DNA of 7,044 nucleotides from Candidatus Aerophobota bacterium (GCA_014859225.1 JACUUP010000078.1:1-7044); one strand, 5' to 3'; positions 1,304-7,044 are shown, counted from the stretch's first letter. The notes: generated by a model from the letters alone, not told the origin. A program made the numbers and translations.

Positions 1304-3511
1304 ATGCCCCACAAAAAACCAGTTGATGTAACTACACATAAGATTCAGGCTTTCATTAAATCCTTTATTAAGAGCACCAAAATTTTGCTTTTTTATCCAG
1401 AAACCAACCCGATGTGCAAAGTAGCGATTGATGAGTGTCTTGAGCTTCTGAGAGAACTTAAAACGGAAAATGAGATTACCATTACTGTCACTCCAAAAGC
1501 TCTCCTTGTCAAAGAGAGACCAATTGACATGAATTATCCAGGTATTGTGCAGTTTACTCAGAGGCTTTATGTGTTGGGTGTAGAAAAGTTAACCTTTCAA
1601 CAAAATGTTACCTCAAGGGAGCTAAGAAGCCTCTGTGAAATATTTGGGATGCATCCAAAGAAAATAACCCAACACAAAGGCGTTTCCAGTATCTTTAAAG
1701 AAAAAGGCATTGAGCACATCCAGCTTGTAGAATCCCGGGTTCCCGAGATAGTGGAAATAAAGGACGCGGAAAAATTTTTGGCTGACGTAATCATGAGAAC
1801 AAAAAGGCAAATGCAGCATTCCCTTGACCAGCGGCAGGTTATGGAAAAATCAATTTTTTTGAGGCCACGAGTTGTTATTAAAGTAGATGCTGACCTTGAT
1901 TTATCCTCCCTATCCGGGGATGAAATGGAAGAGCTAATAAGTGACTATGAGCAACTGGGCCAGGTTATACGCGAAATACAGAAAAAAGAGACCGAGAGAT
2001 GGGCACATTTTTTTGGACAGAAGTTAAGGGAGATGCAGCAATTTCTTCAAATAACAGAGGGGAGACCAAAAAGCCAGGTTTGGGACAGAATTGCTCATTC
2101 AATCATAGGGATGGATCCTCAAATCAAAGAAGACCTGGTTGGAAGCTGTTTAATCCCCGCTTTGCTGGGGGGACGGGAGGAAGGAGAGATTTTGCGTTTT
2201 TTTCCAGATGCTGCTCTGGCACACTCCCTTGCTCTTTTATGTGAGTCAGGAATTTTTTTGCCCAGGGCTTTCGCCCAGACAATAGAGAATCTGCATCTAC
2301 CAGAGAGGCGAGAATCTATTCTTATACCCATATTGGGGAGTAAATTGCAGAAAAACGGACACAGGATAGATAACATTCCTGCGTTGCAGGAACGCAAAAA
2401 TACTGTTGAAAAAGAAGTTATGGAGAGACAGAAACTGCGTATCAGTGAAAATGAGCTTTCTTCTGGTATTAACCTAAATTATTTTCAAAACTTAGACATA
2501 ATTTTAGACAACAGGGAAAAAGAGGCGCTTAAACAGCTTGCATCTAAAATGGCTGATGTTGATTTAGTTGCAAGTGAGCTGCGCTGTCTTGTTAACCTGA
2601 TTTCCTTGGAAGAAGATTTAGAGACCTGCCGAAGTTTTGTTGAGAGAGTTTCAAATTTGCTTACTCAGCTTATTAACAGCGAGCACTGGGAGGAACTAAC
2701 TTTTTGGTTAACCAAACTAAGAGTGTTAAATGGCATTGCATGGGAAAAAAAGTTTTTAGCCTCCACTCTGATTGAAGATATGCTTTCCTCCCTTGCCTCA
2801 GGCGGTATTGTCCAGCGTTTGGTTGATATGTATCATCAGGAAAAAGATGATAGACGAGGAGAAAAGTACCTGTCTGTTCTGGGTGCTTTAGGTGATTTTG
2901 TCATCCCTGTATTTATCCAGCTCCTGGATAGCGAAGAACATCGCTCAGTCAGGAGAACAATGATGAACATCATGGTTAAGCTTGCTCCTTCATACGATAT
3001 TAACAGATTCGCTTCGTACATGAATCAGCGCCATTGGTACGTAGTTCGCAACATTGTATGGTTGCTCGGCCAGCTGGGACCAGGTAACGAAAATATCATT
3101 GCAAGGGCCCTCAGCTACGGACACCATAAGGTAAAAAAAGAAGCCATTCGTTCCTTGGCTTCCATCGGTAGTCAAGTAGCGATTGAACAGATTATTTTCC
3201 TGCTGGGGTCTGAGGACCATATGATTAGTAGAACGGCTGCTGAGCACCTGTTATATCTACCCGGGAAGGTTTTAGAACCTCATTTAATCAAACTGCTTTC
3301 CAGATCTGATTTTCTTCAAAAAGATGTCTTTATTACACTCCAATTAGTAGAGATTGCGGGAAAGATACAGGGAAAAGAGCTACTAGAATTGCTTCATCGC
3401 CTGAGCTGGTTGCGGTTTTTTTTCTGGAACTGGAAACTTCTGCGTATCGGTCTGAAAGCCTACAGGACTTTAAAAAAAATTCCTGAAGAGAGAAAAAATG
3501 GAAAAATTTGA
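1304..3511 (+). CDS. Large HEAT-repeat protein with an N-terminal domain shared with the downstream HD-GYP protein
   Basis: 735 residues, apparently cytoplasmic, with no signal peptide. ATG 1304 follows a G-run (1292-1297) at ribosome-binding distance. Residues about 14-142 form a domain with the pattern LLFYPETNPM, a helix, EITITVTPKALLV, a helix, LGVEKLTFQQNVTSREL and KGIEHIQL. This matches, block by block, the N-terminus of the next gene's product. Residues about 150-250 are charged and partly coiled-coil-like (AEKFLADVIMRTKRQMQ and DEMEELISDYEQLGQ). Residues about 260-500 are helical and unassigned. Residues about 500-725 are HEAT-like helix pairs, with YLSVLGALGDFVIPVFIQLL, VVRNIVWLLGQLG and AIRSLASIGSQVAIEQIIFLL as the clearest repeats. 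The end (WLRFFFWNWKLLRIGL, 702-717) is strikingly aromatic and probably a degenerate last repeat. HEAT arrays bind proteins, so a scaffold or adaptor role is inferred; no catalytic motif is seen. The stop overlaps the next start, so the two are co-translated. Confidence 0.82.
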   Translation: MPHKKPVDVTTHKIQAFIKSFIKSTKILLFYPETNPMCKVAIDECLELLRELKTENEITITVTPKALLVKERPIDMNYPGIVQFTQRLYVLGVEKLTFQQNVTSRELRSLCEIFGMHPKKITQHKGVSSIFKEKGIEHIQLVESRVPEIVEIKDAEKFLADVIMRTKRQMQHSLDQRQVMEKSIFLRPRVVIKVDADLDLSSLSGDEMEELISDYEQLGQVIREIQKKETERWAHFFGQKLREMQQFLQITEGRPKSQVWDRIAHSIIGMDPQIKEDLVGSCLIPALLGGREEGEILRFFPDAALAHSLALLCESGIFLPRAFAQTIENLHLPERRESILIPILGSKLQKNGHRIDNIPALQERKNTVEKEVMERQKLRISENELSSGINLNYFQNLDIILDNREKEALKQLASKMADVDLVASELRCLVNLISLEEDLETCRSFVERVSNLLTQLINSEHWEELTFWLTKLRVLNGIAWEKKFLASTLIEDMLSSLASGGIVQRLVDMYHQEKDDRRGEKYLSVLGALGDFVIPVFIQLLDSEEHRSVRRTMMNIMVKLAPSYDINRFASYMNQRHWYVVRNIVWLLGQLGPGNENIIARALSYGHHKVKKEAIRSLASIGSQVAIEQIIFLLGSEDHMISRTAAEHLLYLPGKVLEPHLIKLLSRSDFLQKDVFITLQLVEIAGKIQGKELLELLHRLSWLRFFFWNWKLLRIGLKAYRTLKKIPEERKNGKI

Positions 3512-4883
3512 ATTGCTCAGGGCTCTCATCAAGGCAAAAAATGCTCTTTCTCTATTTCCTGAGGGGCATCCCATGATTCAAGAGAAAGTCAGGGAACTTC
3601 TGGAAAACATTGAAGATATAAGGAAAGAAGAAAACCAGACAGAGATAACCATCATCGGTGAGGAACTTTTCATCAATGGTCATTCTCTACGCCAGGAAAG
3701 TCTTGATTTTGCCAGCTTTATAAGAGAAATTGTTAAAGCGGGAATTAATAGAATCGCTTTCCAACCAGGTATCACATCAGCAGAGTTGATTCTATTGTTA
3801 AACTTCCTTAATGAACGCCAGCATAAGGTTTCTTCCTTTAGGTCGCTTAAACAAGAGCTTCAGGCAAGAGGAATAACCCACATCCTGTTAAACAAAATGC
3901 TACCTGTTAAAACTCTAAAGGATAAAAACAGCTCTGAAGCTCAACCTGGAGAATCACCAAGCGAATATGAAGAGTCTGTTTCTAAAATGGAGGACATTTT
4001 TGAGGCGGTTCTTAAAGGAGCTTCCTTCTCCCCTGAAAGTGTCCATTCCATCGTCCACAGACTCATAGAAAGAACAATAAAGGATGAATCTACCCTGAGA
4101 GGTTTGTTCAACATAAAGACATACGATGACTACACTTTCCACCATTCAGTTAATGTGGCTCTTTTGGGTCTACTTATGGGCAAACGGTTAGGAATTAATG
4201 GAGAGCTATTGAGTTTACTGGGCGAGGCAGCTCTTTTGCACGATATTGGTAAGATAATGATACCAGAGCAAATTATTACTAAACCCGACTCTCTAAATCC
4301 AACAGAATGGGAGATAATATCCCGTCATCCTGTTCTGGGTGCAGAAATACTTTCCTCCATTCCGGGGGTTAGTCCTATCACACCTCGTGTTGCCCTGGAA
4401 CATCATATTCGCTGTGATGGCAGTGGCTATCCCTCTTTGAAGGTAAGGAGAAATGATAACCACTTCACTCAAATTGTCAGTATTTGTGACTTCTACGATG
4501 CTCTCACCACCATCCGCCCCTATCGCACGCCAATGTTTCCTCATCAGGCTATCCTGTTAATGCTACATAGAGGTAAAAATTACTTCAATATGATTCTGGT
4601 CAAATTATTTATCAGTGTGGTGGGTTTTTTCCCCGTTGGAACTGTGGTACGGACAAACCGGCGCGAGGTGGGTATGGTAACAGAGGCCAACCCAGATGAA
4701 CCATTGCATCCGGTAATCAAAATATTGGAAGATGAGCAAGGTAGAAAGCCATCCCGGGAACCTCTTGTAGATACATCTGAAAAAAATCCTGTGGAGGGTT
4801 GTTACTTACGTAACATATCTATGGTCTTTAACCGACAAGCTCCTCTCCTGAAATACTGGCTTAGCCTGAAAGACATAGATTGA
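3498..4883 (+). CDS. HD-GYP domain phosphodiesterase with a non-receiver N-terminal domain
   Basis: 461 residues. ATG 3498 lies inside the preceding gene (14-base overlap), with GAAGAGAG (3485-3492) as a likely ribosome binding site, so translation is probably coupled. Residues about 7-131 are the domain shared with the HEAT protein (LFPEGHPM, EITIIGEELFING, AGINRIAFQPGITSAEL, ARGITHILL). Residues 132-165 are a polar linker. Residues about 195-375 are an HD-GYP domain: H216 in HHSVNV, H248-D249 and K252 in LLHDIGKIMIP, H277 in RHPVLGAEIL, H302-H303 with D307 and GYP 310-312 in HHIRCDGSGYP, and D331 in CDFYDALTTIRPYR. All the usual metal ligands I can place are present, so activity is expected. 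HD-GYP proteins hydrolyse cyclic di-GMP to pGpG or GMP, lowering the signal. The usual glutamate after HH is isoleucine here (HHI). A C-terminal part (about 376-461, FPVGTVVRTNRREVGMV onward) is the accessory tail common in this family. There is no receiver, PAS or membrane sensor, so input must come through the N-terminal domain or the HEAT partner. Confidence 0.9.
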   Translation: MEKFELLRALIKAKNALSLFPEGHPMIQEKVRELLENIEDIRKEENQTEITIIGEELFINGHSLRQESLDFASFIREIVKAGINRIAFQPGITSAELILLLNFLNERQHKVSSFRSLKQELQARGITHILLNKMLPVKTLKDKNSSEAQPGESPSEYEESVSKMEDIFEAVLKGASFSPESVHSIVHRLIERTIKDESTLRGLFNIKTYDDYTFHHSVNVALLGLLMGKRLGINGELLSLLGEAALLHDIGKIMIPEQIITKPDSLNPTEWEIISRHPVLGAEILSSIPGVSPITPRVALEHHIRCDGSGYPSLKVRRNDNHFTQIVSICDFYDALTTIRPYRTPMFPHQAILLMLHRGKNYFNMILVKLFISVVGFFPVGTVVRTNRREVGMVTEANPDEPLHPVIKILEDEQGRKPSREPLVDTSEKNPVEGCYLRNISMVFNRQAPLLKYWLSLKDID

Positions 4884-5112: not shown

Positions 5113-6327
5113 ATGTTTCTCGACCACCGTCTTCCATCCTGGATTCGTGCTAACTACTACTACGATTCTTTAGGGGGACTTTTTTATGGAGCCTTTTATG
5201 GGTTGGCAATTTCCTTTTTCCCTTATGTAGCTAGGAAAATAGGAGCAGAAGATTTCTCACTGGCTCTTCTTACTGCCTCTACTTTCATTGGAGCCTTGCT
5301 CGCCGCATATTGGGGTCATCGCTCATCTAAGCTCACGCGAAAGGTTTCTTTTATTGTCAAAATAAAAGTAGCCGCAAGAATTTTTCTTGCTGTACTAATT
5401 GGTATAAGTTCTCTACCAGCTTTCTATATAACAGTTATTTTAATTTACTGGATTATAGAGTTCATCGCTGACCCTGCCTATGCTCAAACTATGAAGGAGA
5501 TTTATCCTGGGGCTCATCGGGGGAGGGCTTTAGGTTATGTGAGAACCGAGATGGCTTTAGTTGCCATAGTTTTTACCTATCTGGGTGGTGTCCTTCTGGA
5601 TATCACGAGTTACAGAATTATTTTTCCCCTCGGGGCAGGACTGGGAATTCTTTCTTCACTGAGTTTCAGGAAAATAAAGGAGGATTTTTCTAATAAGAAA
5701 AAAGTGGGAGCAGCTGCTCCTTCCTCATCTTTTTTTCGCACGATAAAGCTACCCCTTCGCGATAAAAGATTTCTTCTCTATACATCTATCTCCTTTCTCG
5801 GAGGTGCAGGAAGTTTATTGGTTCTTCCTCTTTACCCTATATATCTTGTAAGCTACCTTAATTTTTCTAACTACTCTATTGGCAAATTGGGGGCTTTGTT
5901 TTCACTGATGTGGATGTTTTCCTATATATTCTGGGGAGAAATTCTTGCTGGAAAGAAACCCACTTATGTGCTTGCCTTTGTATACATATTAGCTTCATTG
6001 GTTCCTTTGTTTTACTATATTGAAAGAAACATCTGGTTTCTTGCTGTGGCAAGTTCTCTTTCAGGTTTTACCTCTGGTGGCTTGGACCTTGGTAGAATAA
6101 CTTACATCACCCGTAATTACTCCATCCAGAAGCTCCCATTTTACTCAGGAGCCGATACCTCATTTATGGGGATAAGAGGAATAATTTTTCCTTTTATGGG
6201 AATAGGTCTTATGCGTCTTTGGGGAATAAAAACGGCTTTCCTTTTTGCTTTCTTGTTCATGTTGGTTAGTGGTGTTTTAACCTGGTACCTCAAGAATAAG
6301 CTGGAAGGAAGTGAGGAAGAAAATTGA
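5113..6327 (+). CDS. Major facilitator superfamily transporter, substrate unknown
   Basis: 404 residues, the usual size for a 12-helix MFS carrier in the inner membrane. AAGGA (5101-5105) lies seven bases before ATG 5113. Hydrophobic helices fall in two groups, about residues 17-183 and 217-394, joined by a polar central loop (186-216, FRKIKEDFSNKKK). The loop after the second helix (YWGHRSSKLTRK, 66-77) sits where MFS motif A belongs and keeps its glycine and basic end, though not the usual aspartate. PAYAQTMKEIYPGAHRGRALG (121-141, between helices 4 and 5) is a segment with a conserved look in one MFS subgroup with arginine-glycine after a YP turn. An acidic-aromatic stretch DHRLPSWIRANYYYD precedes helix 1. 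The C-terminus is short and acidic (EGSEEEN). The gene is flanked by gaps of 229 and 279 bases and so is probably monocistronic. Nothing nearby names a substrate; drug or metabolite export is the usual guess for such proteins and is not supported here. Confidence 0.85.
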   Translation: MFLDHRLPSWIRANYYYDSLGGLFYGAFYGLAISFFPYVARKIGAEDFSLALLTASTFIGALLAAYWGHRSSKLTRKVSFIVKIKVAARIFLAVLIGISSLPAFYITVILIYWIIEFIADPAYAQTMKEIYPGAHRGRALGYVRTEMALVAIVFTYLGGVLLDITSYRIIFPLGAGLGILSSLSFRKIKEDFSNKKKVGAAAPSSSFFRTIKLPLRDKRFLLYTSISFLGGAGSLLVLPLYPIYLVSYLNFSNYSIGKLGALFSLMWMFSYIFWGEILAGKKPTYVLAFVYILASLVPLFYYIERNIWFLAVASSLSGFTSGGLDLGRITYITRNYSIQKLPFYSGADTSFMGIRGIIFPFMGIGLMRLWGIKTAFLFAFLFMLVSGVLTWYLKNKLEGSEEEN

Positions 6328-6606: not shown

Positions 6607-7044
6607 ATGCAGTTAAATGAGGATTTGAAAATTTTTACTGGCCGAGCTAATGTGCAGCTTGCCAGCAGAATTACTGAGTATCTTAGAATAAATCTGGGAA
6701 AGATGCGGATAAGTTCCTTTAGCGATGGAGAAACCTATTTGAAAATTGATGAAAATATAAGGGGTAGCGATGTTTTTCTTGTGCAATCTACCAATCCACC
6801 GGTTAATGAGAATTTGATGGGACTTTTGATTATGATTGATGCTTGCAGGCGAGCCTCAGCTCAAAGAATAACCGTTGTTATTCCTTATTATGGTTATGCC
6901 CGCCAGGATAGAAAAGATAAACCTCGTGTTCCCATCACTGCTAAACTGGTAGCAAACCTGATAACGACAGCCGGGGCAGACCGTATTTTAACTATGGACC
7001 TGCATGTTGACCAGATCCAGGGATTTTTTGATATAAAGGTGGAC
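6607..7044 (+). CDS. prs: Ribose-phosphate pyrophosphokinase, N-terminal part
   Basis: 146 codons are present and the frame is open at the window edge; the full enzyme is usually about 310-320 residues. It transfers pyrophosphate from ATP to ribose 5-phosphate to make PRPP, the precursor of purines, pyrimidines, histidine, tryptophan and NAD, in the cytosol. Recognisable family blocks in order are [10 protein letters not shown] (10-19), the ATP-contacting SSFSDGET (36-43), [19 protein letters not shown] (56-74), the catalytic-loop region [20 protein letters not shown] (92-111), and [14 protein letters not shown] (120-133), whose last histidine is the metal ligand of class I enzymes. The stretch after it, [13 protein letters not shown], replaces the more common A or P residues at two positions without touching known catalytic positions. 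The PRPP-binding loop (DTGGT-type) lies beyond the edge. The gene has its own consensus promoter and a strong ribosome binding site, as expected for a highly expressed housekeeping gene. Confidence 0.96.

Follow-up and report, generated by a model that had tools for sequence, protein, structure and literature searches.

An unnamed N-terminal domain is shared by a HEAT-repeat protein and an HD-GYP-type phosphohydrolase encoded as a gene pair in several bacterial phyla

The window analysed here, a whole contig of 7,044 nucleotides (C193) from a 1.8 Mb, 91% complete Candidatus Aerophobota genome, carries two overlapping genes whose products begin with homologous copies of one domain and then continue into unlike effectors, a HEAT-repeat protein (protein A) and an HD-GYP-type phosphohydrolase (protein B). 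The A-B pair is a real, widespread and unannotated module, new as a combination and in its domain, with effectors of known types.

Two overlapping genes with a homologous N-terminal domain

The following features of the window are referred to throughout.

1304..3511, plus strand: protein A, shared N-terminal domain followed by a HEAT-repeat protein; open reading frame of 735 aa
1334..1750, plus strand: shared domain, A-type copy, residues 11-149, with the motif FYPETNP; profile E=9.6e-44
1901..2353, plus strand: helical stretch in the middle of A, residues ~200-350; AlphaFold2 confidence low to moderate, pLDDT about 50-75
2576..3475, plus strand: helical solenoid of HEAT type in A, residues ~425-724; all-helical, pLDDT mostly 75-94
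3498..3511, plus strand: 14-base overlap of the end of A with the start of B; 62 of 65 homologous loci likewise have B starting close to the A stop
3498..4883, plus strand: protein B, shared N-terminal domain followed by an HD-GYP-type phosphohydrolase; open reading frame of 461 aa
3498..3911, plus strand: shared domain, B-type copy, with the motif LFPEGHP; profile E=5.8e-42; model pLDDT 90.4, pTM 0.84
4095..4619, plus strand: catalytic HD-GYP region of B, spanning residues 200-374; aligns to PmGH (4mcw) with E=6e-27
4620..4880, plus strand: C-terminal region of B past the HD-GYP part, residues 375-461; motif of the FPVGTVVR type conserved (30 B homologues)

The open reading frames in the window bear out the earlier coordinates of both genes and their 14-base overlap, which probably reflects translational coupling; a purine-rich stretch lies ahead of the ATG in both A and B. 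The original prediction, that the two products have a common N-terminal domain, is borne out by direct comparison: residues 17-141 of A align with residues 6-131 of B over 126 residues with 25% identity, 47% positives and one gap (BLASTP, E=5e-11), and the check that had been proposed, a profile-profile alignment of the two N-terminal domains, gave a probability of 99.8 and E=1.2e-27 over 139 columns when 15 A-type domains were set against 15 B-type domains. This likeness is far beyond chance, and the domains, each ~135 residues long, are homologous. When the B domain was used as a query against the whole 1.8 Mb genome, only two copies were found, B's own and that of A (E=6.7e-11). The best-conserved feature of the domain is a Y-P-x-x-H/N-P motif between its first two helices. 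Behind the common domain the effectors are indeed unlike, with Pfam models over their cut-offs in both proteins, HEAT_2 in A (E=1.5e-8, 35.3 bits against a cut-off of 27.7, best stretch residues 601-650) and HD_5 in B (E=6e-21, 75.4 bits against 27.2).

An AlphaFold2 model of the domain built with 22 related domains (pLDDT 90.4, pTM 0.84) is alpha/beta, with the order helix-helix-strand-strand-helix-strand-helix-helix-strand. The N-terminal domain in the full-length model of A has this same order plus one extra short helix, so the predicted helix/strand order agrees between the A and B domains. The domain is unnamed, as had been claimed: the first ~140 residues of A and B have no significant match in Pfam or NCBIfam, and no named domain was assigned, the single lead being a sub-threshold, isolated match of one of 23 domains to the Kiwa KwaB-like family PF16162 (E=0.0026; 18.2 bits, with the cut-off at 26.3). 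No known fold was assigned either, with no significant match in the PDB (Foldseek best E=0.11) or in the viral structure library BFVD (best E=0.23). The best VIA-align row (Z 4.1, rmsd 4.0 over 65 aligned residues) and those listed with it look like generic helical arrangements. The lack of a significant structural match does not make the fold a new one.

The rest of the window holds other open frames. At 51-713 lies an open frame, possibly missing its start, that resembles an MNT-type nucleotidyltransferase (ILYGSWAKGKARENSDIDLL) and continues into a stretch that resembles HEPN (PF05168, E=0.0019, short of the cut-off). Two short overlapping frames occupy 861-1264, directly upstream of A; the second resembles the start of a nucleotidyltransferase (MIIGGQAVLLYGEPRLTRDIDVTLGV), stops early and is possibly a decayed toxin-antitoxin-type gene. 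Downstream of B are two ordinary neighbours, an MFS transporter (5113-6327) and the start of a ribose-phosphate diphosphokinase (6607-7044). A phage or plasmid origin was rejected after tblastn searches returned no match, as was a defence system, for which PADLOC gave only weak matches to generic HEAT and Cas3-HD models.

Conservation and history of the pair

When 386 diverse bacterial genomes were searched with a profile built from 23 domains, 101 of them proved to carry the domain. Among the 97 loci examined were 65 genes encoding the domain followed by HD-GYP, and 62 of these have a domain+HEAT gene immediately upstream in the same orientation; the start of the B domain lies anywhere from 16 bases before to 169 bases after the A stop. 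The neighbourhood survey, proposed with the remark that homologues rarely found adjacent would speak against a dedicated two-protein unit, thus came out the opposite way and upheld the unit. Two of the three exceptions (L072 and L108) are at contig ends on the upstream side, and the third (L086) stands beside a broken partner; at a further locus (L088) the A gene is followed by a B domain without the enzyme part. Ten more pairs, all from MAGs and with organism names as given in the records, belong to Acidobacteria, Elusimicrobia, Deltaproteobacteria, Armatimonadetes, Nitriliruptoraceae, Gemmatimonadota and a MAG labelled Cyanobacteria. Apparent A-B fusions at three loci (L095, L127 and L128) were rejected, being long open frames that overlap in different reading frames. 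No constant third gene of an operon was found, the commonest neighbour family occurring at five loci in varied positions.

Four loci (L130, L151, L152 and L155) hold tandem A-B-A-B arrays. Each of the four array genes of L151 has its orthologue at the matching place in L152, and L155 shows a duplication of the whole A-B unit, the copies being mutually nearest, so that the pair has been passed on, and multiplied in tandem, as one unit. Distances among A domains correlate with those among B domains (r=0.67 for 61 pairs, against a permutation maximum of 0.16), a correlation to which shared species history contributes. In a phylogeny of 176 domains, A-type and B-type copies lie on opposite sides of a single branch (support 0.855) for 97% of the 146 tips scored, and the A/B labels require 5 changes, whereas shuffled labels need 49 on average. 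A third group, 22 of the 24 tips in one clade (support 0.846), comprises domain+HEAT proteins that lack a B gene; stand-alone proteins within the A clade are, as far as checked, cases of a contig edge, a broken partner or a weak partner.

The clades and tandem arrays together point to an early duplication of the domain, probably in an early ancestor, after which the pair moved and was duplicated as a unit. An old duplication giving two clades is thus the part of the predicted history, duplication followed by effector swapping, that stands; the order of the swap is less certain, since the third clade of stand-alone proteins means that domain+HEAT could be the older form. The existence of stand-alone domain+HEAT proteins also indicates that in some settings the domain can do without a B partner.

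The HEAT and HD-GYP parts

HEAT_2 was found in 50 of 54 A homologues. The full-length model of A is weak overall (pLDDT 74, pTM 0.44) and all helical beyond the N-terminal domain. A shows a weak, HEAT-level sequence likeness to the phycobilin lyases CpcE/CpeY and to NblB, but it scores far below the NCBIfam cut-offs, these proteins lack the shared domain and the gene context differs. Some relatives of A are built differently. One has two tandem shared domains (L082:3449-5551), and six proteins of ~900 residues (L073, L074, L077, L080, L087 and L094) carry an N-terminal extension of ~230 residues ahead of the shared domain and HEAT repeats; in the two that were scanned, the extension had no Pfam match. 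Two longer proteins, of 1565 aa (L113:684-5378) and 1204 aa (L126:1340-4951), combine GGDEF, AAA_16, the shared domain and HEAT in one chain, an architecture that links the shared domain to c-di-GMP synthesis too. No constant neighbours were found for the stand-alone domain+HEAT genes.

The HD-GYP region of B holds H216, H248-D249, K252, H277, H302-H303, G310-Y311-P312 and D331. Seven metal ligands (H, HD, H, HH, D), with roles described for PmGH, are common to both HD-GYP subgroups (PMC4159591), and the window B keeps all seven (H216, H248, D249, H277, H302, H303 and D331), together with K252 and D210 as the equivalents of K225 and D183 of PmGH. A tyrosine (YTF) at the position of PmGH E185 places the window B with the Y/F subfamily of HD-GYPs, which is predicted to be binuclear (PMC4159591). 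The HD-GYP consensus HHExxDGxGYP reads HHIRCDGSGYP in the window B, with DGxGYP kept and the Glu of HHE replaced by Ile; this position, which is not among the listed metal ligands of PmGH (PMC4159591), is mostly L, M, I, V or A in B homologues. Because of this replacement, we file B as a divergent HD-GYP relative rather than as a canonical member.

All seven ligands are kept in 67 of 79 B homologues, one of the remainder being cut by a contig end, and on these sequences B appears to be an active enzyme, both in the window and in the majority of its relatives. The earlier label of B as a cyclic-di-GMP hydrolase is, with seven ligands kept, plausible for the window protein, but it cannot cover every member, because 11 surveyed B proteins, including a whole Myxococcota group, have lost ligands. 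The substrate is probably c-di-GMP, a link that comes from the HD-GYP family only, and 3'3'-cGAMP is a live alternative. GGDEF proteins, which the window genome has, occur in 38 of 38 genomes with the pair and in 35 of 38 without it; since nearly all pair-less genomes are GGDEF-positive, their presence says nothing about the substrate and was dropped as evidence for c-di-GMP. PilZ proteins, present in 31 of 38 genomes and absent from that of the window, were set aside as uninformative, this count having no control genomes.

B resembles PmGH (4mcw) and the Y/F-subfamily HD-GYPs in its HD_5 match, seven ligands, equivalents of the catalytic Lys and Asp, and GYP. It differs from known HD-GYP phosphodiesterases in lacking the HHE Glu, in having an N-terminal domain that is no known sensor and in its obligate HEAT partner gene. 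The N-terminus of RpfG from Xanthomonas campestris is a receiver domain, a type for which we found no match to A, B or the shared domain in Pfam or NCBIfam. RpfG is an HD-GYP protein that acts through protein-protein contacts (PMC4159591, PMC4877007); its partners, however, are GGDEF and PilZ proteins, and it has neither a HEAT partner nor the shared domain. PmxA, a Myxococcus HD-GYP with a Cache-TM-HAMP input (PMC4877007), and other Myxococcus HD-GYPs share the HD-GYP domain with B and come from a phylum that also contains the A-B pair, in Corallococcus, where B, unlike PmxA, is a degenerate HD-GYP.

B has altered ligands and an altered GYP motif, e.g. HHDAHKD and GNI, in Corallococcus interemptor and its relatives, and the B proteins of this group are predicted to be non-catalytic. 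The loci of this Corallococcus-type Myxococcota group, L231:4130-7226 and the related L238-L244, L246 and L247, show loss of metal ligands and GYP from the HD-GYP partner together with strict retention of the A-B pair. Nearly every close Corallococcus-type relative has exactly two copies of the domain, adjacent where both are seen. That the pair is kept although the ligands of B are lost indicates that something besides hydrolysis holds the genes together, and favours an assembly role for the pair. It is also hard to square with the idea that A and B do not work together and lie side by side only as a by-product of a tandem duplication long ago. The N-terminal domains are clearly products of duplication, as this idea says, but order and near-zero spacing have been kept over several phyla, the unit has been duplicated whole and the pair outlives the loss of catalysis by B, and we consider a mere by-product highly improbable.

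A putative second-messenger module

These data lead us to favour, with modest confidence, a model in which A and B make up an obligate second-messenger module of two proteins. The A-type domain would bind its B-type counterpart, or the two would co-assemble, tying B to A; the HEAT part of A would then place B beside a putative target, or gate it; and a cyclic dinucleotide, probably c-di-GMP, would be hydrolysed locally or only when the solenoid of A is engaged. Physical contact between the partners, the substrate, the direction of control and the target of the HEAT part are all suppositions of the model.

The shared domain could instead be a ligand sensor or a localisation tag, with A and B serving one pathway and making no direct contact through their domains. 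This explanation, which we regard as the less probable one, draws on the occurrence of the domain without B, before HEAT alone or between GGDEF-AAA_16 and HEAT, and on the strongly conserved Tyr-Pro-x-x-His/Asn-Pro motif, which could line a pocket; however, no ligand-binding structural relative of the domain was found, and a sensor or tag by itself leaves the presence of A beside nearly every B unexplained. It is rather unlikely that A regulates B through its HEAT part or linker while the domain only homodimerises, giving A2 and B2: HD-GYPs can dimerise through N-terminal regions, as in the PmGH homodimer (PMC4159591), and stand-alone A-like proteins must manage without B, but the same domain on both partners would then go unexplained.

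Returning to the two-protein module, a wider proposal can be put forward tentatively: that the pair represents a new phylum-spanning system in which paralogous domains heterodimerise and so couple a HEAT scaffold to an HD-GYP enzyme, that the domain, which some genomes join to a GGDEF-AAA-HEAT protein, is a general assembly module for cyclic-dinucleotide enzymes, and that the Corallococcus-type enzyme is now a non-catalytic partner. Full-text searches, in a literature set with few subscription papers, turned up nothing about the domain or a pairing of HEAT with HD-GYP, an absence that is weak evidence, and HEAT goes unmentioned in a census of c-di-GMP sensory domains from 2022. Most, or at least many, of the input domains of c-di-GMP enzymes are still unrecognised (PMC8846402). 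The domain described here sits on HD-GYP enzymes in many phyla and, as far as seen, always with a HEAT partner gene. Since the pair is present in Myxococcaceae, where mutants can be made, its function is directly testable, and naming the domain would annotate a large protein family and give a defined pair in which to study the control of a phosphodiesterase by a partner.
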